Source: Sneathiella sp.
GTDB taxonomy: Bacteria; Pseudomonadota; Alphaproteobacteria; Sneathiellales; Sneathiellaceae
Reading direction: 5' to 3'
NCBI GenBank assembly: GCA_021741195.1
Contig: JAIOYL010000019.1
Span: forward strand, 1 to 32,259
Length of the DNA: 32,259 nucleotides
Shown: in pieces, positions 1 through 14,908 of the stretch
Position numbering within the stretch: the first letter of the stretch is position 1
How the letters are laid out: every line of letters begins with the position of its first letter
Made by a program: the position numbers and the translations under genes
Notes under the pieces: model-generated
What the model saw: only the letters and a program-made list of their open reading frames with translations
Told to the model about the DNA's origin: nothing
Databases searched by the model: none

Positions 1-1133
1 AATCTCACTGATTCCGCAGCGCCGTTCACGTCAATCTCCGCCCGGGAAGGTGGGCCCGAAAGCGCCGTATCCACCTTCTCCGCCAGGCGCGCCGGTGTCA
101 AACCTTCTTCATCGGCTATCTGTAACACACCTTTTTCGGCTAGTAGTCTCGCCCTGAGGGTCTGCTCGGTCTCGAGGCCACCGGCATAGGGCACGATGAC
201 TGCCCGGCATTTCGCATGGAGAACTTCCATAACCGTATTATAGCCGCCCTGGCTGATGGAAAGCGCACAGTTCATCAGCAATGTCGTGAAATCTGCCCTC
301 GCCCGCTCAATAATAACACCCGCCGGAGCAAGCGCGGAAAGCTCCTCGAATTTCTCGGCCTCTACCGTCGCGCCCACCATCATACGCCATGTCCGGTCTT
401 GGGCGCCGGTAAGTTCGCGCGCCTGCATTGCGGTCTTGAGAAGGTTGGTTCCGACCGCTCCACCGCCGCTGGAAACGATAACTTCTCCGGCACCGGGCGC
501 ACCGGTTCCACCCTTGACGCCGCTGTGATCGACAACATAGCCGGTATAGCAGATCCTGTCCGCAATACGCGCCGTATGAGGAAAAGTCTTGCCCAGCGAG
601 ATCAGCTCCGGATCACCATGCACCATGACATGATCGAAATATCTCTCGACCAGTTCCAGCATCTCGTCATTGCGGCCGGGCTTTGTCTGCGCCACCAGAA
701 TATCGCGCACAGAGGAGATAATCAGCGGTGGCTTTGCCGCCGCCCTGGCCGCGTCGAGTAATGGCAGGAGCTCGAAGCGCATCTGTCGGCGGCCAAACGG
801 AAACAGTTCCGTGATCAGGATATCCGGCTGGTAATCTTTATAGATATCAAGAAGGCGCTCCGCCCGCATCGCCCGCCACCCCTCGTCGATCTGCTGCCCG
901 TCTTCATCGACAAGTACCTTGAAATAGAGATCGGTCGCGCGGGTCGCAGGCAGCTGGATCAGCGTCGCACCACCGAGATCGACCTCAATCTCGTGACCGC
1001 CGGAGACAACCGTGACATCAAATCCCGCCCGCATCATGTTGCGCGCCAGTGTCGCCGTCCTTTTCAGATGCCCGATCCCGAGCAGATGCTGGACATAGAA
1101 CAGGATTTTGACGGGAGGAACTAGAATGGTCAT
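1..1133 (-). CDS. Predicted glycosyltransferase, COG4671-like (3' end cut by window)
   Basis: Reading the minus strand from the ATG at 1133 gives an uninterrupted frame to the left edge, about 377 codons, with no stop, so the C-terminus lies outside the window. The N-terminus (MTILVPPVKILFYVQHLLGI, then GHLKRTATLARNM) resembles the start of MurG/UGT-type GT-B glycosyltransferases, which act on nucleotide-sugar donors. A central GEVIVSSGGGAVG segment and a later SISQGGYNTVMEVL segment, followed by an IVPYAGGLETEQ stretch, match the donor-binding C-terminal half of the family (glycosyltransferase 28 C-terminal fold, as in COG4671 proteins). It is the last visible gene of the operon and its ATG overlaps the upstream phosphatase stop by 4 bp (ATGA), so translation is probably coupled. 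The sugar and acceptor are unknown. Family assignment is by motif recall, not by search. Confidence 0.75.
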   Translation of the reverse strand, partial: MTILVPPVKILFYVQHLLGIGHLKRTATLARNMMRAGFDVTVVSGGHEIEVDLGGATLIQLPATRATDLYFKVLVDEDGQQIDEGWRAMRAERLLDIYKDYQPDILITELFPFGRRQMRFELLPLLDAARAAAKPPLIISSVRDILVAQTKPGRNDEMLELVERYFDHVMVHGDPELISLGKTFPHTARIADRICYTGYVVDHSGVKGGTGAPGAGEVIVSSGGGAVGTNLLKTAMQARELTGAQDRTWRMMVGATVEAEKFEELSALAPAGVIIERARADFTTLLMNCALSISQGGYNTVMEVLHAKCRAVIVPYAGGLETEQTLRARLLAEKGVLQIADEEGLTPARLAEKVDTALSGPPSRAEIDVNGAAESVR

Positions 1134-1711
1134 GTTTTCTCCATGGCTATATTGATGCGGAGCGGGCGGAGATCGCCCTCCGGGGTCACCTCGAAGAGAT
1201 GTCCGGTGGCCCAATCGAAGCTGACCGGCGCCTTGTCTGTCATGTCCCAGTCATAGGCGAGGGATTTAAGCGCGCGGATCACTCCCTTATGGGTTACCGC
1301 AATGGTATCGCGCCTGAGGCTGGCAAGCCAGGGTTTGAGCCGCGCAACGACATCCGCCGGACTTTCGCCGCCGGGCGGCGTCATCAAAATCCCGCGCGCC
1401 TCATTATACCTGAAATCATCGCCATATTTTTCGAGGAGCCCCGGCAGTGTCTCCCCCTCCCAGTCACCCCAGCTCATCTCGATCAGCGCCGGTTCAATTT
1501 TGAGGGAAGTCACGCCAAGAAGTTCCGCAGTTTCACGAGTGCGGTTGAGCGGGCTTGCCGTCCAGTCGAACCCTGAAAATTCCGTCGGGACGCACCGGCC
1601 CGCAAGCTCGGCGCGGCCTTCGGGGCTGAGCGGGATATCCGTTCGCCCCTGAATTCTCTTCTGCAAATTCCAGTCGGTTTTTCCATGCCGTATGGCGAGC
1701 AAGCGGACCAT
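1130..1711 (-). CDS. Histidine phosphatase family protein (phosphoglycerate mutase-like)
   Basis: A 193-residue protein of the branch-1 histidine phosphatase superfamily. The N-terminal RHGKTDWN motif holds the phospho-accepting His with its Arg, and IAVTHKGVIRAL near residue 140 supplies the second catalytic His. MSWGDWEGE in between is the usual acidic region. The length fits small cobalamin- or sugar-phosphate phosphatases. A TTG lies immediately before the ATG at 1711; I chose the ATG because it gives a TGATG junction with the stop of the upstream glycosyltransferase (stop 1713-1711). It is embedded between glycosyltransferases in a tightly overlapping operon, so a substrate tied to glycan synthesis, such as a sugar phosphate, is plausible but unproven. 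The exact substrate cannot be read from sequence. Confidence 0.85.
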   Translation of the reverse strand: MVRLLAIRHGKTDWNLQKRIQGRTDIPLSPEGRAELAGRCVPTEFSGFDWTASPLNRTRETAELLGVTSLKIEPALIEMSWGDWEGETLPGLLEKYGDDFRYNEARGILMTPPGGESPADVVARLKPWLASLRRDTIAVTHKGVIRALKSLAYDWDMTDKAPVSFDWATGHLFEVTPEGDLRPLRINIAMEKT

Positions 1712-2838
1712 CAAAGCGCCGCTCCGATATGTTCTTTCAGGAGCGCCGCCGCTGTCGCCAGATCATGCGCCGCCATCACATAGTCGCGCGCGGCGGCGCC
1801 CATCCGCTTCCGCTCTTCCGGATTTTGGAGCAAATTCCCGATTGCCGCCGCAAACGCCGCCTTATCACCCTCCGGCGTCAGAATGCCGGTCACCCCATCT
1901 TTGACGACATCGGGAACCCCCCGGATATTTCCGGCGACCACCGGCAACCCGCAGGCCTGTGCTTCCAGAAACGCCATGCCGTAGGCCTCACCATGGGCGG
2001 GCCAGACATAAAGATCGGCAAACCCATAGAAGGCAGGGAGCTGTTCCGCGGGCCGCGGACCGAGATACGCGACCTGCGCACCCTGCGGCGCCAGTGCCTG
2101 CTCGACGCGGGCGCGCTGGTCGCCCTCGCCGACCACCAGCAACTGCCAGTCACCGCCCTTTAATCGGCGTAAAGACTCTCCCAACTGCTCGTAGGAAATC
2201 ATCTTGTCGCCGGAGCGCATCATGGCGACGGCCAGCAGGTTCGTCATACCCGTTTTTCCGCCTGCTTTAACAATTTCTGTTTCGACATCGACGGGCACCG
2301 CCGCCTGCAGGAAGCCCTCGATATCGAGAAAGGGCGGCAGGAATACCAGTCTTTCCGGTTGGCTGACCAACGGCCTCAGGCAGGCGCCGTCGAGCGCCGT
2401 CATATGAAAAACGAGGCGCGCAGAGGCGATCCCGCTAGCGGCGGCGTCATATCCCAACTGCCACAGCCCCGACGCCCGTTTCGGCGCATGGCTTGCCTCC
2501 GCAACGAAATAGGGAATATCGAGCGCGCGACAGACGGTCGGGCCGATCCAGTCCGGGGCCTTGTGATACAGATGATAGGTGAACCAGCCCTTTGGCGCAT
2601 CAACGGGATTTTCCCGCCATTTCGCAATCAGGTTATCTGCTTCCTCTTTGCCCTTCTCCGCAATTGATTTCTGCAATGCCGGATCGCCCCGGCCATCGAA
2701 ACTGCGCAGACTGGAGGTCAGCTCCGGCTCGAACCCGGCAAGTTCCAGCGCCTGCCAGAGCAGACGGCCCATGCGTCGGTCGCCGGAGGGAACAGGATGA
2801 TCCGGCGATTTCATGGGCGCGTAAAAGGCCAGCTTCAT
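1711..2838 (-). CDS. Glycosyltransferase family 4 (GT-B) protein
   Basis: A 375-residue protein with the GT4 architecture. The N-terminal Rossmann half begins MKLAFYAPMKSPDHPVPSGD, as in glycosyltransferases with a glycine-rich acceptor loop. The C-terminal half carries LLVVGEGDQRARVEQ (start of the donor-binding domain, about residue 233) and the EAYGMAFLEAQACGLPVVAG segment containing the E-x7-E signature (about residue 285-300), then GVPDVVKDGVTGIL. Such retaining enzymes move sugars from NDP donors onto glycan or lipid acceptors at the cytoplasmic face. Its ATG overlaps the stop of the upstream GT4 gene by 4 bp (ATGA), and its own stop overlaps the phosphatase start. The specific linkage made is unknown. 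Confidence 0.88.
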   Translation of the reverse strand: MKLAFYAPMKSPDHPVPSGDRRMGRLLWQALELAGFEPELTSSLRSFDGRGDPALQKSIAEKGKEEADNLIAKWRENPVDAPKGWFTYHLYHKAPDWIGPTVCRALDIPYFVAEASHAPKRASGLWQLGYDAAASGIASARLVFHMTALDGACLRPLVSQPERLVFLPPFLDIEGFLQAAVPVDVETEIVKAGGKTGMTNLLAVAMMRSGDKMISYEQLGESLRRLKGGDWQLLVVGEGDQRARVEQALAPQGAQVAYLGPRPAEQLPAFYGFADLYVWPAHGEAYGMAFLEAQACGLPVVAGNIRGVPDVVKDGVTGILTPEGDKAAFAAAIGNLLQNPEERKRMGAAARDYVMAAHDLATAAALLKEHIGAAL

Positions 2839-4109
2839 GGCAAGGTTCCGGTTTTTTTTGTTCCGGTATTGGCGCTGAATTTATCCGCCAGCCTGCCGAT
2901 CCAGGCCTCCGCGTCGAAAAGATCACGAAGCCGCCGGTTGCCACCCTCTGCAAGGCGCTCGCGCAAGGCGGGATCCTCGCAAAGGCTCAGCAAGGCAGCC
3001 CGCATCGCCTCAGGATCGCGTTCCGGCACAAGAAATCCGGTCTCCCCGTTGATAACCAGCTCGGGAATTGCCGAAACATTGGTGGCTGCGACGGCGAGTT
3101 TCTGGCTTTGCGCCTCCATCAGGACATTGGGCAGGCCATCGCGGTCACCATCATCGGCGATCCGGCTTGCGAGCACGAATATGTCCGCCGACTGCAGCGC
3201 CGCCAGCACGCCGCTTTGCGGCAGGGCCCCGCGCCAATTGATCCGGCCCGCAATTCCAAGCTGGCTCGCCCGGGCTTTCAGGGTGTCCAGGAGCGGTCCA
3301 CCGCCGATATGGGTAAAGCTCCAGTTCAATGTCTCCGGCAACCCGGCGAGCGCCGCCAGCAGATTGTCATAACCTTTCTTGGCGACCGCGCGGCCGACCG
3401 ACACAAGCTGTACCGGGTTCGACGGATCACTCCCGTCCCGGTCGTGGCGGCGGATTGCAAATTCTGGAAACCGGGCAAGATCGAGGCCGTGATACATAAG
3501 CTCGACTTTTGACGGATCCGCCGCAAGGCTCCCCAGATAGTCGGCGTTTAACGACGTGCAGGTGACAAGCCAGCGAAGCGCATCGAGTTTTTCCCTGAGC
3601 TCCCATTCCGGCGACGTCCAGATATCCTTGGCATGGGCGGAACAGCTCCAGGGCAGTCCGGTCATCAGGCTCGCATACCTGGCGACGGAGGCTGGCGTAT
3701 GCAGGAAATGCGCATAGATATGGCTGGCCCCCTCCGGCATCTCGACCGCCAGCACCAGCGCCTGCCCAAAGCGGCGTACACGGTTGGGCGTGAGGTCGCG
3801 CCTCAGATCCTTAAGCCAGATCTCTTTCGCTGCCCGGTAACCCGGAAGCCGCCGTGCGTACCGCCATGCGTGCAAAACCCGGAGCGGCTCCTGATACAGA
3901 TATTCCGGCAGGTAATTTACGGGAGCCACAATCTCATCATGGATTGGATGCGTTTTCTTGTCTGTGGGATGGCGCAGCGAGACAAGCGCAAGCCTGATCC
4001 CCCGCCGCTGCAATGATAACAGCTCCTGGGCGATGAAGGTTTCCGACAGTCGCGGATAGCCCTTGAGGACCACCACTACCACAGGATTTGTATCAGGCGA
4101 GACAGACAT
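2835..4109 (-). CDS. Glycosyltransferase family 4, WcaL-like, first gene of operon
   Basis: A 424-residue GT4 protein. KGYPRLSETFIAQEL near residues 16-30 is the typical beginning of colanic-acid-type (WcaL-like) glycosyltransferases, SAHAKDIW near 158 is the conserved central His motif of that group, and VQLVSVGRAVAKKGYDNLL starts the donor domain. DGDRDGLPNVLMEAQSQ contains the donor-binding E-x7-E region. It likely transfers a sugar from a nucleotide donor in capsule, lipopolysaccharide or glycolipid assembly. It is the first gene of the overlapping four-gene set. The start at 4109 lacks an obvious Shine-Dalgarno sequence, and a perfect TATAAT lies only 8 bp upstream on the same strand, so the message may be almost leaderless. 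Confidence 0.88.
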   Translation of the reverse strand: MSVSPDTNPVVVVVLKGYPRLSETFIAQELLSLQRRGIRLALVSLRHPTDKKTHPIHDEIVAPVNYLPEYLYQEPLRVLHAWRYARRLPGYRAAKEIWLKDLRRDLTPNRVRRFGQALVLAVEMPEGASHIYAHFLHTPASVARYASLMTGLPWSCSAHAKDIWTSPEWELREKLDALRWLVTCTSLNADYLGSLAADPSKVELMYHGLDLARFPEFAIRRHDRDGSDPSNPVQLVSVGRAVAKKGYDNLLAALAGLPETLNWSFTHIGGGPLLDTLKARASQLGIAGRINWRGALPQSGVLAALQSADIFVLASRIADDGDRDGLPNVLMEAQSQKLAVAATNVSAIPELVINGETGFLVPERDPEAMRAALLSLCEDPALRERLAEGGNRRLRDLFDAEAWIGRLADKFSANTGTKKTGTLP

Positions 4110-4117
4110 AGGGTTTT

Positions 4118-4123
4118 ATTATA
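4118..4123 (-). promoter_or_regulatory. Perfect -10 hexamer for the glycosyltransferase operon
   Basis: On the minus strand, TATAAT reads from 4123 to 4118. Transcription from it would begin near 4111, two bases before the ATG at 4109. No strong -35 hexamer is visible 16-18 bp upstream. The divergent gap to the ABC-type gene is only 186 bp and would have to hold promoters for both directions. Confidence 0.35.
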
Positions 4124-4295
4124 CTCACGGATTATAAACAGGATACTTGTTAAGGGCTGAACCGGTAAATATCAACAGGCAAAGAACCGCCGAGGACACG
4201 CTTCTGCGTCGCGTTCACAATTTCCTTCTTGCGGCGGGGGATGGAACTGTGAAAAACTACGCCGTCCTTGACCCCTTGTATCCTGCGAGGCGTAT

Positions 4296-6974
4296 ATGGA
4301 AGTGAGCAGGCCGCGTTTAATGGAACATAACATTTACAAGTACATTCTGCGTTACAGTATGAAACAGCAGATTATACTTACCGTTTTGTCCATAGCCTCC
4401 TTCCCGTTTCTCTATTACTTCCTCACCCTGCCGAAAGTGATCATCAACCAGGCAATCCAGGCGAACGATATTGCTTTTCCGGTTGAGTATGTCGGGTTTG
4501 AGTTTGACCAGAATGAATTTCTGTATCTGACCGTCGGGATTTTTCTCGTGATGGTGATCGTCAATCAGGCGTTCAAATATATTATCAATGTCTATCAGGG
4601 AATTTCCGGCGAACAGATGCTGCGCCGGCTCCGGTACGATCTTTACGGGCGCATCCTGCGGTTCCCCATGCCAACGTTCAAGAAGAAGAGCCCAGGCGAG
4701 ATCATTCCAATGATCACCGCCGAAGTCGAGCCATTGGGCGGGTTCATCGGCGAAGCATTCGCCGTACCTATTTTCCAGGGCGGATATCTGCTGGTTATTG
4801 TCGGCTTTCTGGTTGTTCAGAACTGGGCGATGGCAGTGGCGGCAATCGCACTTTACCCCCTTCAGGCTTATTTTATCCCGAAACTGCAAAAGCAGGTGAA
4901 CCTGCTGGGCAAGGCGCGGGTGCGGCTGGTACGCACACTATCGGATCATCTTGGCGAAGCCGTCAGTGGTGTCGAGGAAGTCCATGCCCATGACGGCTCC
5001 AACTATATGCGCGCGCAATTCTCCCGCCTGCTGGATGAGATTTACACCGTCCGCTACCGCATTTACCTGTTGAAATTCGTCATCAAGTTCCTGAACAACT
5101 TCATCCAGCAGCTCGGGCCGTTTTTTTTCTACGCAATCGGCGGCACCATGGTCATCAACGGCACGCTTGAGGTTGGTACACTTGTTGCCGCTATCGGGGC
5201 GCATAAGGAAATGGCTGCCCCCTGGAAGGAATTGCTGGCCTATTATCAGCGCCGCGAGGATGCCCGCATCAAATACGAACAGGTCGTCGAGCAGTTCGAT
5301 CCGGCGGGAATGCGCGACGAGAGTAATCAGCTGACAGAGCCCGAAGAGCTACCCCATCTCACCGGGGAAATGGTCGCCAGCAATATTGAGCTCGCCGATG
5401 ATACGGGAACGAAATTGCTGGAAGGGTTGACGGCCCGCTTCAAGCTCAACGAGCGGGTCGCGATTATCGGCCCCGCCGGATCGGGGCGTGAGGCCCTGAC
5501 CCATGTTCTTTCACGGCTCATAGATCCCGATCAGGGACGATTGACCGCTGGTGGCCTCGATTTGATATCAGCGCCCGAAGCCATTGTCGGCAGGCGGCTC
5601 GCTTATGTCGGGCAGCATGGCTATGTCTTTAATTCGACGCTCGGCGACAACCTCTTTTTCGGCCTGAAACACCGGCCCCTGCATGAGAAAAAGTATGAGG
5701 GCGAGGAAGAAACACGGCGGCAAACCTATATAAAGAATGCGGAACTTACCGGAAATACACCAGACGATGTCGACGCCGACTGGTTCGACTATGACCTGGC
5801 TGGCGTCACTGACGCGGAAGGCCTCAAAGCCCGCGCCCTGACTGTCCTTGAGATGGTCGATTTGAGCGACGATGTTTACCGGCTCGGCCTCCGCAGCACC
5901 ATCGATCCGCGTCAGGCACCGGAAACGGCGGAACTCATCCTGTCGGCGCGGCGCCGGTTTTTCGAAAAAATCGAAGCGGATCCAAGTCTCAAGAACATGC
6001 TCGAGGCCTTCGAGCAGGATCGCTATAACACCAATGCGACGGTTGCTGAAAACCTGCTGTTCGGCACCCCGGTCGGCGATGATTTCGACCTCGACCGCAT
6101 GGCCGAAAACCGCTACGTCCAGAAAATCATCGAGGAAGCCGGATTGACGGAAACCTTCCTTCAGATGGGCTATCAGGTCGCCACCCTGATGATCGAACTC
6201 TTTGCCGGTCTGCCGCCGGATCATGAGTTTTTCCAGCTTTACGGTTTTATTTCTTCGGACGACCTGCCGGAATACCAGGCGATGATCAGCCGGATCGACT
6301 GGGATCATCTGGACCAGTTGAAGGAGGAGGACCGGCTGCGTTTCATGTCGCTCCCGTTCAAGGTTATCCCGTCCAGGCATCGTCTCGGTGTTCTGACCGA
6401 TGACATCCAGGAAAAGGTGGTTCTGGCCCGACAAAAATTTGCCGCCGAACTGCCGCCCCATCTCAAAGACAGCGTTGCTTTCTTCGATGCGGACGCCTAT
6501 AACGCGGCGACGAACCTGCAGGACAATATCCTGTTCGGCAAGATCGCCTTTGGTTACGCGCAGGCCGCGGAGAAAATCGGCGCGGTCCTTGGGACCGTCG
6601 TCGAGGAGATGAGCTTGCGAAACACCATCATCGCCGTCGGCCTCAATTTCAAGGTCGGAACGGCCGGAGCGCGCCTCAGCGCCAATCAGCGCCAGAAACT
6701 CTGCATCGCCCGGGCCATCATCAAGAACCCGGATGTGTTGATCCTGAACCAGGCGACTTCCTCTCTCGATGCGGTCACACAAGCCCGCCTGATGGAGAAT
6801 ATTCTTAATGAATTCAAAGGCAAGGGGCTGATCTGGTCTATCGATCACGCCGACAAGACGGCAGGATTTGATCATGTTCTGATATTGAGGAGAGGCAGAC
6901 TTGCAGAGTCGGGAAGCCCTGAAAAATTGGGCCAGGGAAGCGTTCTTTACAAGGATATGCTGACAGGTTCTTGA
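4296..6974 (+). CDS. ABC-type membrane protein with degenerate, expanded ATPase half
   Basis: An 892-residue fused ABC half-transporter-like protein. Residues 20-330 form an exporter-type membrane domain (hydrophobic spans near 24-44, 77-95, 155-195 and 260-300). The nucleotide-binding half begins near 355 and is abnormal. The Walker A equivalent at 392-399 reads GPAGSGRE, lacking the Lys and Ser/Thr. The signature at 794-800 is LSANQRQ instead of LSGGQ. Walker B at 814-825 is VLILNQATSSLD, with Asn and Gln where Asp and catalytic Glu are expected. A Gln (440) and His (851) fit the Q- and H-loops. About 300 extra residues lie between Q-loop and signature, with the post-Q-loop motif occurring three times (NLFFG 452, NLLFG 586, NILFG 744). 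It is cotranscribed with a cNMP-binding protein 34 bp downstream. ATP hydrolysis is doubtful; transport substrate unknown. Confidence 0.8.
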   Translation: MEVSRPRLMEHNIYKYILRYSMKQQIILTVLSIASFPFLYYFLTLPKVIINQAIQANDIAFPVEYVGFEFDQNEFLYLTVGIFLVMVIVNQAFKYIINVYQGISGEQMLRRLRYDLYGRILRFPMPTFKKKSPGEIIPMITAEVEPLGGFIGEAFAVPIFQGGYLLVIVGFLVVQNWAMAVAAIALYPLQAYFIPKLQKQVNLLGKARVRLVRTLSDHLGEAVSGVEEVHAHDGSNYMRAQFSRLLDEIYTVRYRIYLLKFVIKFLNNFIQQLGPFFFYAIGGTMVINGTLEVGTLVAAIGAHKEMAAPWKELLAYYQRREDARIKYEQVVEQFDPAGMRDESNQLTEPEELPHLTGEMVASNIELADDTGTKLLEGLTARFKLNERVAIIGPAGSGREALTHVLSRLIDPDQGRLTAGGLDLISAPEAIVGRRLAYVGQHGYVFNSTLGDNLFFGLKHRPLHEKKYEGEEETRRQTYIKNAELTGNTPDDVDADWFDYDLAGVTDAEGLKARALTVLEMVDLSDDVYRLGLRSTIDPRQAPETAELILSARRRFFEKIEADPSLKNMLEAFEQDRYNTNATVAENLLFGTPVGDDFDLDRMAENRYVQKIIEEAGLTETFLQMGYQVATLMIELFAGLPPDHEFFQLYGFISSDDLPEYQAMISRIDWDHLDQLKEEDRLRFMSLPFKVIPSRHRLGVLTDDIQEKVVLARQKFAAELPPHLKDSVAFFDADAYNAATNLQDNILFGKIAFGYAQAAEKIGAVLGTVVEEMSLRNTIIAVGLNFKVGTAGARLSANQRQKLCIARAIIKNPDVLILNQATSSLDAVTQARLMENILNEFKGKGLIWSIDHADKTAGFDHVLILRRGRLAESGSPEKLGQGSVLYKDMLTGS

Positions 6975-7008
6975 GCGCGAGGCCCGTGAAAATGAAGGGA
7001 GACAATCA

Positions 7009-7464
7009 GTGAGCTTGAAAGAAGAAGTTGAGATCCTTCGGCAGATACCCCTATTTGCAAAGATAGAGCCGTCGAAAATAAAGCTCCTCGCGTTCACATC
7101 CGAGCGCCTGACATTCCAGCCGGGTGACTTGCTGTGTAAGCAGGGGGATAACGGCGACGCGGCTTATTTTATCATGGCCGGCGAGGCAAGTGTAATTGTC
7201 GAAACGCCCTCGGGCCCGCTGACAGTGGCGACGCTTGGAAAGAATGATGTTGTGGGCGAAATTGCCATTCTGATAGATGTACCAAGAACGGCGACCATCG
7301 AGGCGGCGACGGAGCTTACTGCCCTCAAAATAACCAAGGATGTATTCTTCCGAATGGTGACGGAGTTCCCGGAAATGGCCGTTGAAATGATGCGGGTCCT
7401 GGCCGAGCGCCTGGTACGTACCACCGATGATCTTCAGAAAGCCAAGGAAAGCAATCGAAAGTGA
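7009..7464 (+). CDS. Stand-alone cyclic nucleotide-binding domain protein
   Basis: A 151-residue protein made of one CRP-type cNMP-binding beta-roll with no DNA-binding helix-turn-helix after it. LFAKIEPSKIKLLAF opens the domain, and VVGEIAILIDVPRTATIEA (about residues 84-102) matches the phosphate-binding cassette, with the Glu that contacts the ribose and the Arg that contacts the cyclic phosphate. The C-terminal helix ends at residue 151. The start is a GTG at 7009 preceded by GAAGGGA. It lies between the ABC-type gene and the dehydrogenase-like gene, whose GTG start overlaps its stop (GTGA). It probably senses cAMP, cGMP or a related ligand for the membrane protein next to it; that partnership is inferred from position. 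Confidence 0.85.
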   Translation: MSLKEEVEILRQIPLFAKIEPSKIKLLAFTSERLTFQPGDLLCKQGDNGDAAYFIMAGEASVIVETPSGPLTVATLGKNDVVGEIAILIDVPRTATIEAATELTALKITKDVFFRMVTEFPEMAVEMMRVLAERLVRTTDDLQKAKESNRK

Positions 7465-8585
7465 AAATAGGCATCCCCAGGGAAATCAAACCGCAAGAAG
7501 GCCGTGTCGCATTGTTGCCGCCGCAGGTTCACGATCTGGTACCCGCCGGTAACAGCCTTTTCGTGCAGTCCGGCGCAGGCGTCCTCTCCGGCGCGAGCAA
7601 CGCGGATTATATCGCCGCCGGCGCCTCCATCCTGCCGACTGCAAACGGCGTATATGAGACCGCCAAGCTCATCGTCAAGGTCAAGGAAATCCTGCCCGCC
7701 GAATTCGGCCTGCTCAAAAAGCATCATATCCTGCTGACCAATATACATTCCGCCAATGACCGCAAGCAGCTCGATCACCTGCTTGACGTGGGCCTGACCG
7801 CCCTTTCCGCCGAGGATACCCACCAGTTCGGCTCTCCCAACTGTGCCCTCGCGGGGGAAGTCGGCGCCTTTGAAGGCGTGCGTCTCAGCCTTGCGCCGCA
7901 TGGCGGAACGGGACGGCATTTCATGGCGCATTTCGGCGCGCCGCCCGCCAAGGCGATCATTCTCGGACTTGGCCATGTCGGACGCGGGGCGCTGCGCACC
8001 CTGTTGTCATTGGGCATTGATGTCGTCGGCCTCGATATCAACCCCGGCGCCCGCAAGCAGGCGATGCTTGACTGGCATAACAACCGTTTTACCGCAGGCC
8101 CGATTTCAGATCTGGAGATGCATCTGGCCGATGCGGACATGATCTTCAACTGCGTGATGTGGCCGAAACATCGCGACGATCATCTGATCAGCCGCGCGGA
8201 CCTCGCAAAACTGAAGCCGACCGCCATTATTGTCGATATCTCCTGCGACGAGGGCGGCGCGATCGAGACCAGTCATCCGACGAGCTGGCAGGACCCGGTC
8301 TATGTGGCGGAGGGGATCCGCCATTTCTGTGTCGATAATATTCCGGGCGCGGTGCCAGTCACGGCGGCAGCGGGCTATGCCACCGCGTTGCTGCCGCATA
8401 TCAAATCCATTGCCGAACATGGCGCGCTTGAAGCCTGCCGCCGAGATCCCTGGCTCGCGCGGGGACTGACCTGCGTGGGTGGCATTCTGACGCATGAAGA
8501 AGCTGCGCGGGTGCAAAAGCGGGAATTTACTCCAGCTGCGGAATTGCTGGAAAAACAAAGGAATGCGGAAAAGGCTGGCCGATGA
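7461..8585 (+). CDS. Alanine dehydrogenase / transhydrogenase-like NAD(P) oxidoreductase
   Basis: A 374-residue member of the AlaDH/PNT family, close to the usual 370 residues of alanine dehydrogenases. It opens with MKIGIPREIKPQEGRVALLP, the family N-terminal signature. Lys 73/75 (IVKVKEI), His 96 and Asp 263 (VDISCDEGG) fall where alanine dehydrogenases have their substrate-binding Lys, catalytic His and Asp. AIILGLGHVGRGAL at 165-178 is the dinucleotide-binding glycine loop. The central part (EDTHQFGSPNCALAGEVGA) departs from classic alanine dehydrogenase, so a related amino or keto acid, possibly as in saccharopine dehydrogenases, could be the substrate. It starts at a GTG overlapping the cNMP-binding gene, and its stop overlaps the permease gene by 4 bp. 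Confidence 0.75.
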   Translation: MKIGIPREIKPQEGRVALLPPQVHDLVPAGNSLFVQSGAGVLSGASNADYIAAGASILPTANGVYETAKLIVKVKEILPAEFGLLKKHHILLTNIHSANDRKQLDHLLDVGLTALSAEDTHQFGSPNCALAGEVGAFEGVRLSLAPHGGTGRHFMAHFGAPPAKAIILGLGHVGRGALRTLLSLGIDVVGLDINPGARKQAMLDWHNNRFTAGPISDLEMHLADADMIFNCVMWPKHRDDHLISRADLAKLKPTAIIVDISCDEGGAIETSHPTSWQDPVYVAEGIRHFCVDNIPGAVPVTAAAGYATALLPHIKSIAEHGALEACRRDPWLARGLTCVGGILTHEEAARVQKREFTPAAELLEKQRNAEKAGR

Positions 8586-9877
8586 CCGGCTGGATTTCCG
8601 CCCTCGCAGTCTATCGTGACCGGCGCATCCTGAGCATTACGCTGCTCGGTTTTTCCTCGGGCGTTCCGCTTCTGCTGACCGCCAGCATCTTGCAGGCCTG
8701 GCTGACGCAGGAGAAAGTGGACCTCACCTCGATCGGGCTGTTCACGCTGGTGGGGCTGCCCTATACGCTCAAGTTCCTCTGGGCGCCGCTCATCGACAGC
8801 ATCCGGATTCCCGTACTTTCAAACCTGTTTGGCCGCCGTCGAAGCTGGCTGCTGCTGCTGCAGGCCTTCCTGATCGCGGCAACGCTTGTCCTCGCCTTCA
8901 GCGACCCGAAAGCCAATCTCTTCCATGTCGCCGTCGCCGCGCTGGTCGTCGCCTTCGCCTCCGCGTCCTACGACATCATCGTTGACGCCTTCAGAATAGA
9001 GATTTGCGACGAGAAGAACATGGCGGCGGGTGCGGCGACCTATGTCTATGGCTATCGCATCGCCATGTGGCTGACCGGCTTTTCCAGCTTCGTCATCGCC
9101 GATTATTTCGGCTGGACGATCAGCTATATGGTGATGGCCGCCTTTATCCTTATCGGCACTGTCACGGTCCTGTTCACGGCCGAGCCAAGGGTCGAAAAAG
9201 CCGTCCTTGACAATAAATCCCTGGTGACAACGAACGCCTATCTCGACTGGCTGAAAACCTCCGTCATCGACCCCTTTCTCAATTTCATGCAGAAACCGGA
9301 CTGGCTGATCATCCTTCTCTTCACCGTGCTCTACAAGTTCGGCGACAGTCTCGCGGGGGCCATGACGAACCCCTTCTATCTGCAAACGGGCTTCACGCTC
9401 ACCGAAATTGCGGAGATCGTCAAAACCCTCGGCACCGTTGCGATTTTCGGCGGGCTGTTCCTCGGCGGTTGGCTGCTCGCCGCAACCACCATGTACAAAG
9501 CCTTGTGGATTTCCGGGCTGCTGCAGATGGTCTCCAACCTGATGTTCGCGGCCCAGGCCGCCATCGGGCCGGACCTGTCTTTTCTTGCGCTCACCATCGG
9601 CATCGAGAATGTGGCAAGCGGGATGGGAACCGCCGTCTTCGTCGCCTATCTTTCCAGCCTCTGCAATGTCGCCTACACGGCGACGCAATATGCGCTGCTG
9701 ACCTCGCTGATGGCGGTCGCGCGCACGGTGCTGGTTTCCCCGGCTGGCTGGCTGGTCGAGCGCACCGGCTGGATCGAATTTTTTATCCTTACCACTCTGG
9801 CGGCCTTGCCGGGGCTAGCGCTCCTCTGGTATCTCTCGTACCGTCAGCCGATCGAACAACAAGAAGGGGCCGCCTGA
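8582..9877 (+). CDS. AmpG-like permease (MFS)
   Basis: A 431-residue, roughly 12-span MFS membrane protein. The N-terminal run LLGFSSGVPLLLTASILQAW, then GLFTLVGLPYTLKFLWAPL and GRRRSWLLLLQ, is nearly diagnostic of the AmpG group, whose known members import anhydromuropeptides or glucosaminyl-anhydromuropeptides into the cytoplasm for cell-wall recycling. VDAFRIE is another conserved piece. Length is shorter than the roughly 490 residues of Escherichia coli AmpG but normal for alphaproteobacterial relatives. Its ATG overlaps the dehydrogenase stop (ATGA), and the acyl-CoA synthetase follows after 22 bp. No muropeptide amidase or beta-lactamase lies nearby, so cell-wall recycling is not supported by context and the true substrate may differ. 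Confidence 0.8.
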   Translation: MTGWISALAVYRDRRILSITLLGFSSGVPLLLTASILQAWLTQEKVDLTSIGLFTLVGLPYTLKFLWAPLIDSIRIPVLSNLFGRRRSWLLLLQAFLIAATLVLAFSDPKANLFHVAVAALVVAFASASYDIIVDAFRIEICDEKNMAAGAATYVYGYRIAMWLTGFSSFVIADYFGWTISYMVMAAFILIGTVTVLFTAEPRVEKAVLDNKSLVTTNAYLDWLKTSVIDPFLNFMQKPDWLIILLFTVLYKFGDSLAGAMTNPFYLQTGFTLTEIAEIVKTLGTVAIFGGLFLGGWLLAATTMYKALWISGLLQMVSNLMFAAQAAIGPDLSFLALTIGIENVASGMGTAVFVAYLSSLCNVAYTATQYALLTSLMAVARTVLVSPAGWLVERTGWIEFFILTTLAALPGLALLWYLSYRQPIEQQEGAA

Positions 9878-11429: not shown

Positions 11430-12044
11430 TCACGTAGGCGTTTTGATAAGTTTTTTGAGAGCATCAGCGGCTTCGGTAATATTCCCCGCGCCCCAGAAAC
11501 CATCATTATACATCAGGAAGGGGGATGAGCCGGACCAGGCGACGATACCCCCGCTCATACCAGGCACCCATTTCTCCTTGTCATCCTGATAGGGATCGGG
11601 GGCTTTCGTTTTGCTTAAGCGAAGGCGGATATCACCACGCCCTTTGGCAAACCGCTTGAGGTTAAAATCCGTAATGTCAGCGGGAAAAAAAGCCGTCTCA
11701 TGCACCCGAAACGACCCCTTTCGTAAAATTATGGCGCGTTTGTCCGTCACAAAATAGGCTGTACGATAGGCTCGCCATCCATACCGTAGCGGGCTTAGCA
11801 AGAGCCACAGAGACCCCAGAACAAGCAGAGTTTCAGGAAGTCGTATGTCACCGATGCCGTCCGACGCCCGCCACAGCATGACCAGGAATAAAGTCAGAAA
11901 GACGCCAACAACACAAAACCAGAAATTAAAGTATAGCGAACGAAAGATATCCGGCCGGCCCGTCCAGAGCAGTGTCTCCTCCGGCCACATGACGTGCTGG
12001 CGAAACCATGTTTCGGCGGAAGAAAGCGGTTCCACCGGCGTCAC
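11430..12044 (-). CDS. Small membrane protein with bacterial PH-like domain
   Basis: A 204-residue protein. The first 40 residues include WPEETLLWTGRPDIFRS, the usual lead-in of bacterial PH-domain membrane proteins. Two hydrophobic spans follow (about 36-58 and 68-88), then YFVTDKRAIILRKGSF and later DITDFNLKRFAKGRGDIRL, the strand pattern of a bacterial PH domain. Function is unknown for the family. It starts at a GTG (12044) that overlaps the stop of the MarR gene (GTGA), so the two are translationally coupled. It converges on the acyl-CoA synthetase with a 6 bp gap. Whether it has any link to homogentisate metabolism is not shown. Confidence 0.65.
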   Translation of the reverse strand: MTPVEPLSSAETWFRQHVMWPEETLLWTGRPDIFRSLYFNFWFCVVGVFLTLFLVMLWRASDGIGDIRLPETLLVLGSLWLLLSPLRYGWRAYRTAYFVTDKRAIILRKGSFRVHETAFFPADITDFNLKRFAKGRGDIRLRLSKTKAPDPYQDDKEKWVPGMSGGIVAWSGSSPFLMYNDGFWGAGNITEAADALKKLIKTPT

Positions 12045-12487
12045 TTGCCGTTTTCAGGTTCGAGATAGAGTGCTTCGAGCGCTGCCAGGCCCTTGAATAA
12101 CGCCTTGCTGTTCTCGCTGCCCAATCGGGAGATCATCTCCTTCTCCATCCTCTGCATCATAGGCACCAGCCGGTCATACGCTTTTTTTCCCTGCGCCGTT
12201 AAGGTAATTCGCGCCATCCGGCGGTCGCCTTCATCGACTTCACGCACCAGCCAGCGTTTCTGCTCCAACGCATAGATGGCCCGGCTGACCTTTGTCTTGT
12301 GCATTGTTGAAAAATGCGAAATCCCGGTCGCGGTCATGGTCCCCTTCTGTCCAAGCAGGGCAAATGCACGCCATTCCGGACGGGTCAGGCCATATTCCGA
12401 TTGATAGGCTTTACTCGCATTTTTACTCAAGGTTTCCGCCAATCGGTTAAACCGGTAAGGTAGAAATTCCTCCAAAACGAGCGTCAT
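12041..12487 (-). CDS. MarR-family regulator, probable repressor of the homogentisate operon
   Basis: A 148-residue protein with the MarR winged-helix layout. An N-terminal dimerisation helix is followed by LTRPEWRAFALLGQKGTMTA and GISHFSTMHKTKVSRAIYAL (the recognition helix, about residues 53-75). The wing REVDEGDRRMARITLTAQGK (about 80-99) carries the family's DxRxxxxxLT-type pattern. C-terminal helices complete the dimer interface. It is transcribed away from hmgA across an 85 bp gap holding three GTTAC repeats, the arrangement of self-regulated MarR repressors. By analogy with HmgR- and HpdR-type regulators of tyrosine catabolism, homogentisate or another aromatic acid could be the ligand. 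That role rests on position, not on residues. Confidence 0.85.
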   Translation of the reverse strand: MTLVLEEFLPYRFNRLAETLSKNASKAYQSEYGLTRPEWRAFALLGQKGTMTATGISHFSTMHKTKVSRAIYALEQKRWLVREVDEGDRRMARITLTAQGKKAYDRLVPMMQRMEKEMISRLGSENSKALFKGLAALEALYLEPENGK

Positions 12488-12507
12488 ACGAAAAAACTTT
12501 CTTGATA

Positions 12508-12536
12508 GTTACATTTTCAACGGTTACATATGTTAC
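12508..12536. promoter_or_regulatory. Candidate operator: three GTTAC direct repeats between marR and hmgA
   Basis: GTTAC occurs at 12508, 12523 and 12532 within the 85 bp divergent gap, with TTGATA at 12502 just ahead. The repeats would overlap promoters for either direction. They are direct, not palindromic, which is not typical for MarR dimers, so this is tentative. Confidence 0.35.
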
Positions 12537-12572
12537 TAAATATGCTGATCAAGATCAACAAGGATTGTTCCT

Positions 12573-13880
12573 ATGGCTCTGACCTATATGTCCGGCTTCG
12601 GCAATGAGTTTGAAACCGAGGCGCTGCCGGGCGCCCTTCCCGAAGGGCGGAACAGCCCTCAGAAATGCGCCTACGGTCTTTATGCGGAGCAGCTTTCGGG
12701 CTCCGCCTTTACTGCGCCGAAGGCGACCAACGCACGAAGCTGGCTCTACCGGATGCGGCCCTCTGTGCGGCATACCCGGCATTTCAAACCCGTCGAACGC
12801 TTCCTTTGGAAATCCGCGCCTGCGGTGTTTGACGATGCGCCGCTCGGTCAGTTTCGCTGGAACCCGATCCCGCTGCCGGATGCGGAAACAACCTTCCCCG
12901 CTGGTATCGCGACAATGACTACCGCAGGCAGCGTCCTTGCCCAGGCCGGCATGGCGGCCCATGTCTATGCCTTCAACGCAAATATGACGGATGACTATTT
13001 CTTCAACGCCGATGCGGAAATGCTGCTGGTGCCGGAGCTTGGGCCGATCAGGATCATGACCGAGCTTGGCATCCTCGATGTTGCGCCACTGGAGATTTGC
13101 GTTCTACCGCGCGGGATGATGTTCCGTGTCGAATGTCCGGATAAGGCCGCGCGCGGGTATATCTGCGAGAATTACGGACCGCGCTTCACCCTGCCGGAAC
13201 GCGGACCGATCGGCGCCAACGGCCTCGCCAATCCCCGCGATTTCAAATATCCCGTCGCCGCCTATGAGGAGACAGAAACACCCTGCACTATCGAGGTCAA
13301 ATGGGGCGGGAAGTTTTACCAGACGGAAATCGTTCATTCACCGCTCGACGTTGTCGCTTGGCATGGCAATTATGCGCCGTACAAATATAGCCTCCGGCAT
13401 TTCAACACGATCGGCTCGATTTCATTCGATCATCCGGATCCGTCCATTTTCACCGTTCTGACGGCCCCGACCGGGGAGCCTGGCACGGCGAATGTCGATT
13501 TCGCGATTTTTCCGCCGCGCTGGCTGGTCGCCGAAGACACCTTCCGCCCCCCCTGGTATCACCGCAATATCATGAGCGAATTTATGGGGCTTATTCATGG
13601 CCAGTATGATGCCAAGGAGGAAGGGTTTGTACCCGGCGGCATCAGCCTGCATAACATGATGCTGCCGCACGGGCCGGATACATTCGGCTTCGAGAAGGCC
13701 AGCAACGCAGACCTTGCGCCGCAAAAACTCGATGATACCATGGCCTTCATGTTCGAAACGCGTCTGCCGCAGATTGTAACGGAATTCGCGGCCCGTCATG
13801 ACAGCCTGCAAAAGGACTATATCAATTGCTGGGACGGGCTGGAGAAGAAGTTCGACGGCACCATTGAGGGAAAGAAATGA
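12573..13880 (+). CDS. hmgA: Homogentisate 1,2-dioxygenase
   Basis: A 435-residue protein of the usual size for this Fe(II) enzyme, which opens the ring of homogentisate with O2 to give 4-maleylacetoacetate. The N-terminal [17 protein letters not shown] is the family signature. The iron ligands expected from the human enzyme (His 335, Glu 341, His 371) match His 330, Glu 336 and His 366 here with identical spacing, in [12 protein letters not shown] and MMLPHGPD. The catalytic His 292 matches His 287 in [18 protein letters not shown] is also conserved. A Shine-Dalgarno AAGGA sits 8 bp before the ATG. It is the first gene of a six-gene operon, and its stop overlaps the next start (ATGA). Confidence 0.97.
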
Positions 13881-14908
13881 AACTTGCGACATTAAAAGAC
13901 GGCAGCCGCGACGGCAAGCCGGTGGTGGTCTCAAAAGACCTGTCCCGTTGTGCGGCGATGCCGGAAATCGCTGCCAATTTGCAGGCAGCGCTCGATAACT
14001 GGCCGGATATTGTGCCAAAGCTCACGAAAATCGCTACCAGGCTGGTGGAAGATCCCTCTTTTGGCGAAAAGTTCGACGAGAAGACCGCCCATTCGCCTTT
14101 GCCGCGCGCTTATCAGTGGGCGGACGGCTCCGCTTATGTCAATCATGTGGAGCTGGTGCGCAAGGCGCGAAATGCCGAGATGCCGCCCTCCTTCTGGACC
14201 GATCCGCTGATGTACCAGGGCGGCTCCGACAGCTTCCTTGCCCCCCACGATCCGATTGTCATGGCCGATGAGGCCTATGGCATCGACATGGAAGGGGAAG
14301 TCGCGGTGATCGTCGGGGATGTTCCCATGGGCGCAGGTCTTGAACAGGCGCGCGCCGCCATCCGCCTTGTCATGCTCGCCAACGATGTCTCCCTTCGCGG
14401 CCTTATCCCGGCGGAGCTCGGCAAGGGTTTCGGCTTTTTTCACGCAAAACCCTCCAGCGCCTTTTCCCCGGTCGCCGTGACGCTGGACGAGCTTGGCGAT
14501 GCCTGGGACGGCGCGAAACTGCATCTGCCGCTGCTCGTTGATTATAATGGCGCGCCTTTCGGCAAAGCCAATGCCGGGATCGACATGACCTTTGACTTCG
14601 CCGAACTGATTGTCCACGCGGCGAAAACCCGGCCACTCGGCGCAGGGGCTATTATCGGCTCGGGCACCGTCTCCAATAAACTCGGCGACGGGCCAGGCAA
14701 GGCCATCAGCGAGGGCGGTGCGGGCTTTTCCTGTATCGCCGAGGTCCGTATGATCGAGACCATCAACGGCGGCGCGCCCGCGACGCCCTTCATGAAATTC
14801 GGCGATACCGTGCGGATCGAGATGAAAGATAAAGGTGGCGCCTCCATCTTTGGCGCGATAGATCAGGTTGTTGAACAGTATCATCCAGATAACTCAAAAG
14901 ATATTTAG
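13877..14908 (+). CDS. fahA: Fumarylacetoacetate hydrolase family protein (likely fumarylacetoacetase)
   Basis: A 343-residue protein of the FAH fold, shorter than the roughly 420-residue eukaryotic enzyme but normal for a bacterial group found beside hmgA. The order of conserved segments is [33 protein letters not shown] (Glu residues for the divalent metal), [11 protein letters not shown] and [11 protein letters not shown]-like [11 protein letters not shown] near residue 255, which matches the C-terminal active-site loop. It would cleave fumarylacetoacetate to fumarate and acetoacetate, the last step of tyrosine breakdown. Translation is coupled to hmgA by an ATGA overlap, and an MBL-fold gene follows after 10 bp. 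Its role is well supported by context together with maiA. Confidence 0.9.

Follow-up and report, generated by a model that had tools for sequence, protein, structure and literature searches.

The stretch of DNA analysed here (the window: 32,259 nucleotides, positions 1 to 32,259 of contig JAIOYL010000019.1 in assembly GCA_021741195.1) is a contig of a 3.38-Mb draft genome of a Sneathiella species, and carries two consecutive genes that recur as a pair in Alphaproteobacteria. The first encodes a protein with the fold of an ATP-binding cassette (ABC) exporter whose nucleotide-binding domain (NBD) is enlarged and degenerate, here called pseudo-ABC, and the second encodes a small stand-alone protein of the kind that binds cyclic nucleotide monophosphates (cNMP). 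The pair faces a divergent group of glycosyltransferase (GT) genes, and the features of the locus are as follows.

4296..6974, + strand: pseudo-ABC exporter, 892 aa, from open reading frame (ORF) and Pfam; probable start 4296 or 4320
4320..5303, + strand: ABC-exporter-type transmembrane domain (TMD), the most conserved part of pseudo-ABC
5358..5666, + strand: N-terminal half of the pseudo-NBD, with degenerate Walker A GPAGSGRE, Q-loop and the start of the first ENLxFG segment
5667..6500, + strand: NBD enlargement of about 280 aa, with a second Q-loop/ENLLFG copy and the start of the third
6501..6971, + strand: third ENLxFG segment, degenerate signature LSANQ, degenerate Walker B ILNQATSSLD and H-loop without His
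7009..7464, + strand: stand-alone cyclic-nucleotide-binding protein, 151 aa, GTG start, PF00027 only
4110..4295, no strand: divergent intergenic region of 186 bp between the glycosyltransferase genes and the pair, from ORF coordinates
2835..4109, - strand: GT4 glycosyltransferase, conserved divergent neighbour (PF00534, 4.3e-31)
1711..2838, - strand: GT4 glycosyltransferase, conserved divergent neighbour (PF00534, 4.9e-31)
1130..1714, - strand: histidine phosphatase (PF00300, 1.4e-35)
3..1214, - strand: GT28-like glycosyltransferase, reaching the contig end (PF04101, 1.2e-9)

Pfam matches in the pseudo-ABC protein are ABC_membrane (PF00664; 1.6e-25 for the protein) and, in two stretches, ABC_tran (PF00005), and the protein has both the ABC_membrane TMD and the NBD fold of type IV (ABCB-like) exporters. 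Of 22 relatives, 15 have a called ORF whose first residue corresponds to position 8 or 9 of the window protein, and the true start of the latter may therefore lie at about 4320. Relatives at E <= 1e-40 were found in 132 of 385 alphaproteobacterial genomes, at least two of which hold something other than a full-length relative (G324, TMD-only; G283, locus L122, with a diverged N-terminal half), and loci were fetched from 106 of the 131 positive genomes besides the window's own. A phylum-wide draw matched in 32 of 398 genomes, 31 of the same class and one, with a TMD-only protein, of another class. Named plasmid records gave 262 matches, mostly from Rhizobium (144) and Sinorhizobium (80).

The window protein reads GPAGSGRE at Walker A, QHGYVF at the Q-loop, LSANQ at the signature and ILNQATSSLD at Walker B, and has an Asp at the H-loop position, so that no intact ATPase motif (Walker A GxxGxGK[ST], Walker B DE, SGGQ, H-loop His) is complete. 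A preliminary description of this DNA had reported degenerate Walker motifs, the LSANQ signature, an enlarged NBD half and a clean frame; direct reading of the motifs and an ORF with no internal stop agree with it on every point. Across the family, motifs were counted in 120 proteins of at least 850 aa (121 with L137 excluded, less L023, a copy of L002), a set that stands apart from the shorter or broken copies L014, L016, L020, L021, L104 and L134-L136 and the TMD-only L126-L133. Walker A is complete in four of these proteins, Walker B in four and SGGQ in none, and intact Walker motifs, which the same description had named as the pattern that would count against it, are far from the norm. None of the four scored motifs is complete in 86 of the 120 proteins, one is in 29, two are in 4 and three in a single member, L062. 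Residue by residue, the Walker A Lys position is K in 61/120 with the next Ser/Thr kept in 5, the Walker B Asp is kept in 16, the Glu at the catalytic position in 58, the H-loop His in 32 and the Q-loop Gln in 35. The K/R site of Walker A has changed at least 18 times on the TMD tree (all trees are from FastTree only, with 119 rows, L018 dropped and L122 kept). One copy, L104:4059-6074, is split by an in-frame stop (one TAG; ORFs of 432 and 234 aa).

Constraint on the protein lies mainly in its membrane part. The ratio of nonsynonymous to synonymous change (dN/dS) against eight relatives was 0.04-0.08 for the TMD, with a range of 0.07-0.21 for the insert and the parts of the NBD. The relatives are ones with unsaturated synonymous change, yet many synonymous values lie near or past saturation, which makes the ratios rough. 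Over 19 genomes, the median identity to the query was 58% for the TMD against 43-46% for the insert and the parts of the NBD, whereas a canonical exporter taken as a control from the same genomes reached 38% for its TMD and 61% for its NBD (best 19 of 30 loci, with 11 weaker paralogues left out; the set may include non-orthologues). Walker B, signature and H-loop were intact in 20/20 rows of this control, and Walker A in the 15 rows printed. Judged from these alignments, conservation is inverted, with the membrane part of pseudo-ABC more constrained than the NBD, the opposite of the canonical exporter. Near-invariant polar residues lie in predicted transmembrane (TM) helices: K260, K264 and D322 in 118/119 rows, N267 in 119/119 and E312 in 115/119 (L122, a very long branch, was dropped here and in the cyclase-flank counts below). 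Decay of a single gene is ruled out by purifying selection, the absence of an internal stop and the same motif losses throughout the family. The earlier proposal that hydrolysis was lost under selection and not by decay appears to fit the low dN/dS and the inverted conservation.

The enlargement of the NBD contains extra copies of the domain's own post-Q-loop segment (ENLxFG), the second at about residues 563-627 and the third at about 721-784 of the window protein. Alignment with hhalign gave E 7.6e-13 (probability 97.8) for the second against the third copy, 3.9e-6 (87.2) for the first against the second and 2.1e-5 (76.8) for the first against the third, and a strand-helix-strand spacing recurs across the repeats in a structural model. 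The matches listed in solved structures (50 rows per list) are ABC exporters and their relatives, including TM287/288, TmrAB, SUR2 and KATP; SbmA was not among the matches listed, which is uninformative either way.

The product of 7009-7464 matches the cNMP_binding domain PF00027 (1e-18), with the pocket GEIAILIDVPRTAT and the phosphate-binding cassette GE...PRTA. No DNA-binding domain was found in this 151-aa protein by Pfam to E 0.01 (PF00027 only), so the C-terminal DNA-binding domain of a Crp/Fnr transcription factor was not found in the window protein, the one scanned, and the lone cNMP-binding domain that had been described as the next gene is borne out. Among solved structures the best match was a Toxoplasma multidomain protein, followed by domains of protein kinases G and A, with Crp-type proteins and the SthK channel lower.

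The two genes stay together across genomes, as the preliminary description had proposed they should be searched for: among 119 assessable loci the cNMP gene is adjacent in 101, fused to the C-terminus of pseudo-ABC in 12 and absent in 6. Pairing of either form thus holds in 113/119 loci overall and in 92/98 outside the near set (L001-L026 and the window), and chance pairing is ruled out by the overall count. The gap to the cNMP gene has a median of 30 bases (98 measured adjacent loci). Counted as adjacent were L063 and L111, with a cNMP match downstream in an overlapping open frame, and L083, with a partial, frame-overlapping match; L008 was not assessable, having 180 bases left on its contig. 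On the tree, fused versus separate needs at least two changes, and fused, separate and absent together need six. The six loci without a neighbouring cNMP gene are L081, L086, L088, L093, L101 and L122, and their genomes hold cNMP domains elsewhere (one in G108, 7 to 16 in the others). In the 113 paired loci the pocket Arg is invariant (113/113) and the Glu is kept in 106 (Asp in 5, Met in 2).

Genomes that carry pseudo-ABC nearly always hold a predicted source of cyclic nucleotides as well. Class III cyclase matches number 15 in the window genome, and the cyclase domain PF00211 is present in 131/132 carrier genomes compared with 118/253 non-carriers; the sole carrier without it, G108 (L101), is one of the six loci without a cNMP gene. 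In 9/119 loci, e.g. L044:6140-7525, the fetched flanks include a class III cyclase gene, a raw count with no background rate.

The glycosyltransferase setting was assessed with hidden Markov models built from three GT families in the 112 loci with at least 2.5 kb upstream. A divergent upstream GT gene is present in 82/112 of these loci and three or more in 71/112; outside the near set the figures are 60/90 and 49/90. The only comparison for this context is a set of eight TMD-only loci, one of which has a GT match (L133), with no genome-wide background. At L133:2194-3231 (G324), a TMD-only orthologue of 345 aa faces a divergent GT28-GT4-GT4 trio. Neither an NBD nor a cNMP gene was found within its stretch, and the rest of the G324 draft genome gave no match over model positions 470-750 and hence no sign of a pseudo-NBD insert. 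The other TMD-only paralogues sit elsewhere.

Among these paralogues, L126:3768-4994, L127:3940-5181, L148:4001-5200 and L149:4031-5230 are stand-alone exporter TMDs of about 400 aa with no NBD in frame. The gene at L127 adjoins a PCu(A)C copper-chaperone gene, and the neighbours of L148 and L149 resemble copper or heavy-metal resistance genes (translations judged by eye). Distant relatives in G283 (L122:2673-5225), G506, G513, G528 and G629 match only the insert and C-terminal half (about 499-871) and look as if the N-terminal half had diverged; G528 has a full-length copy too.

The histidine phosphatase is conserved mainly in near relatives (a cluster of 25 loci, of which all but 6 belong to the near set). 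Downstream, 7461-8585 of the window holds a gene of the alanine dehydrogenase/PNT-like kind, which begins with a GTG inside the last bases of the cNMP gene; its product scores 242 against an alanine dehydrogenase cut-off of 391.85, and its cluster comprises 5 of the fetched loci. It is followed at 8582-9877 by an AmpG-family muropeptide transporter (TIGR00901, 477.7 bits), and at 12041-14908 a MarR regulator stands beside homogentisate dioxygenase and fumarylacetoacetase-like genes.

A link to a published phenotype comes from Sinorhizobium meliloti, in which a homologue and its 'Crp/Fnr' neighbour lie on pSymB, flanked on one side by a methyltransferase/GT group and on the other by FkbM and LacI genes. 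About 12 kb separate the pseudo-ABC homologue from a class III cyclase gene of this region. Counting genes, the pair should be SMb21269 and SMb21270, because SM_b21272 is given as the LacI regulator in a passage of PMC11387232 and the products of SMb21247-SMb21249, SMb21252 and SMb21265 fit the gene order; one or two small genes absent from the listing could still be accommodated below SMb21252. From this position we infer that the pair falls inside the smb21252-smb21271 "PPP" polysaccharide region. As described in passages of Travin et al. 2023 (PMC10128002), strains with transposon insertions in any of nine genes of the smb21252-smb21271 interval were much less fit in the presence of phazolicin, an effect attributed to the uncharacterised polysaccharide PPP. 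Mutants in the GT genes smb21252 and smb21265 had an 8-fold lower minimal inhibitory concentration (MIC) of phazolicin (0.18 vs 1.47 ug/mL), and the adenylate cyclase gene cyaA was depleted in the same screen, its mutant having an MIC of 0.74 (PMC10128002). The passages on PPP neither name the pair nor describe a degenerate ATPase (PMC10128002), and among the matches listed in an open-access literature search we found no paper that describes the pair by title or abstract opening.

By comparing sequences, we show motif loss across the family, constraint on the TMD, repeats within the NBD, pairing with a cNMP gene and a glycosyltransferase context. We tentatively interpret the pair as a cyclic AMP (cAMP)-responsive, ATP-independent membrane component of surface-glycan assembly or export, a reading that we hold to be nearly as probable as its negation. 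What was an ATP-driven pump would here have become, on the same ABC exporter fold, a membrane protein that responds to cyclic nucleotides, giving a two-gene alphaproteobacterial module. Since fusions exist, the cNMP protein would dock on the pseudo-NBD, and cAMP binding would replace ATP hydrolysis in shifting the membrane domain between states. The membrane domain would then flip, export or organise a lipid-linked glycan, and would have as cargo or partner the glycan that the adjacent glycosyltransferases produce, of which the PPP locus in S. meliloti would be an example. A narrower version, in which a second-messenger-gated ABC fold would flip or export the surface glycan, cNMP binding by a partner or fused subunit would replace both ATP binding and hydrolysis throughout a class-wide family, and the NBD would have been remodelled by repeating its NBD-membrane coupling segment, is possible and rather doubtful.

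Several observations weigh against a cAMP-responsive, ATP-independent glycan component. No divergent upstream GT gene is present in 30/112 loci and no GT on either side in 27/112, and all 12 fused copies fall among those 27. With every fused copy among those 27, a role in glycans may be confined to part of the family. The five fused copies that have diverged most, L117-L121, retain the pocket Arg without the RTAT motif, and Asp replaces Glu in three of these five; L123 also keeps the Arg without the motif. The fused copies without GT together with the five altered pockets slightly lower our confidence. The Walker A Lys (61/120) and H-loop His (32/120) are retained in many members, some of which could bind ATP, and the association of carriers with cyclases is a raw count that ignores genome size and kinship. 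In S. meliloti, SMb21269 and SMb21270 are names obtained by counting, and the published passages leave their membership among the nine genes unstated. The MIC of the cyaA mutant changed 2-fold, a shift that the authors consider small and connect with the control of polysaccharide synthesis (passages of PMC10128002). There, cAMP could act by another route, as together with the regulator Clr it controls a polysaccharide cluster nearby (passages of Zou et al. 2017, PMC5498481).

Two other readings we each consider unlikely. The pair may be a membrane scaffold that transports nothing and anchors glycosyltransferases, with the cNMP subunit switching assembly in the manner of SUR. The lack of an intact ATPase, the GT neighbourhood of 82/112 loci and an NBD retained as a fold and not as an enzyme all suit such a role, but the TMD is the most conserved part, its near-invariant polar residues exceed what a plain anchor needs and TMD-only copies persist without an NBD. 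Those same copies (L133 in a GT setting, paralogues elsewhere) and the near-invariant charged residues in predicted TM helices would fit a secondary transporter, in which an ion gradient would drive the TMD as in SbmA/BacA and the NBD and cNMP partner would act as a regulatory brake. In the SLiPT family, SbmA (PF05992) is a peptide importer related to the TMD alone, and PMC13316013 describes it as driven by protons, a precedent for an ABC-type TMD that works without ATP; full-length pseudo-ABC members differ in keeping the NBD fold and a cNMP subunit. Membership in SbmA/BacA was rejected, with PF05992 matching in 1/14 TMD rows (E 0.023) and PF00664 in 14/14, and ion coupling in pseudo-ABC is putative.

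A degenerate site in one half is common among heterodimeric exporters, and the protein might be the dead half of such a dimer, paired with a canonical half-exporter encoded elsewhere as in TM287/288 or TAP. The structure matches listed include both TmrAB and TM287/288, and another exporter-like ABC frame occurs in 7/120 stretches, three of them related. Degenerate halves usually keep Walker A and ATP binding, however, whereas Walker A is mostly lost here, and 113/120 stretches have no exporter-like neighbour (a count of linked partners only); we regard this arrangement as improbable. In the three related loci, L084:2029-4191, L097:2015-3907 and L107:6788-8644, the exporter-like frame adjoins pseudo-ABC on the opposite strand. 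A slow-turnover yet working exporter is more improbable still: the Walker A Lys in 61/120, the Glu at the catalytic position in 58/120 and the three motifs of L062 would fit it, but SGGQ is found in 0/120, conservation is inverted and the K/R site, with its many changes on the tree, does not behave as a catalytic residue. We give as little weight to a CFTR-like, cNMP-gated channel on an ABC frame, for which the C-terminal cNMP domain of the 12 fused copies, a layout known from CNG/HCN channels, and the likeness of the cNMP protein to protein kinases G and A and SthK would speak; most loci have a glycan setting and the pore is putative. Of the channel, scaffold and regulated flippase that the preliminary description had put forward, the GT setting of 82/112 loci favours, as far as gene neighbourhood can tell, a flippase or a scaffold over a channel, and the 12 fused copies stand outside that setting.

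Compared with the type IV (B-type) exporters MsbA, PCAT1, TM287/288 and ComA, pseudo-ABC differs in its degenerate Walker A, Walker B, signature and H-loop, and adds a repeat-enlarged NBD and a cNMP partner. SUR1/SUR2 and CFTR likewise use the ABC exporter fold as a regulator or channel and not as a pump, in a setting unrelated to that of pseudo-ABC. SUR1/SUR2 and CFTR bind ATP in at least one site. A precedent for an ABC exporter combined with a cNMP-type sensor domain is HetC of Nostoc, for which passages of PMC10986499 describe an N-terminal sensor that binds ppGpp in vitro, an essential ATPase residue and a peptidase domain. In pseudo-ABC, by contrast, the sensor is C-terminal or separate and the ATPase is degenerate, and no peptidase domain was found in the window protein (Pfam to E 0.01: PF00664 and PF00005 only). 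The PPP locus of S. meliloti (smb21252-smb21271), with gene numbers assigned by our count, contains both the homologue and the cNMP gene.

ABC proteins are otherwise defined by ATP. If the interpretation of the pair as a cAMP-responsive glycan component is true, it would show how an ATP motor can be converted into a ligand-controlled device. It would also provide an entry point to a little-known surface polysaccharide that, according to passages of PMC10128002, protects a rhizobium from an antimicrobial peptide, and would make an action of cAMP on envelope assembly beyond transcription testable through two genes.

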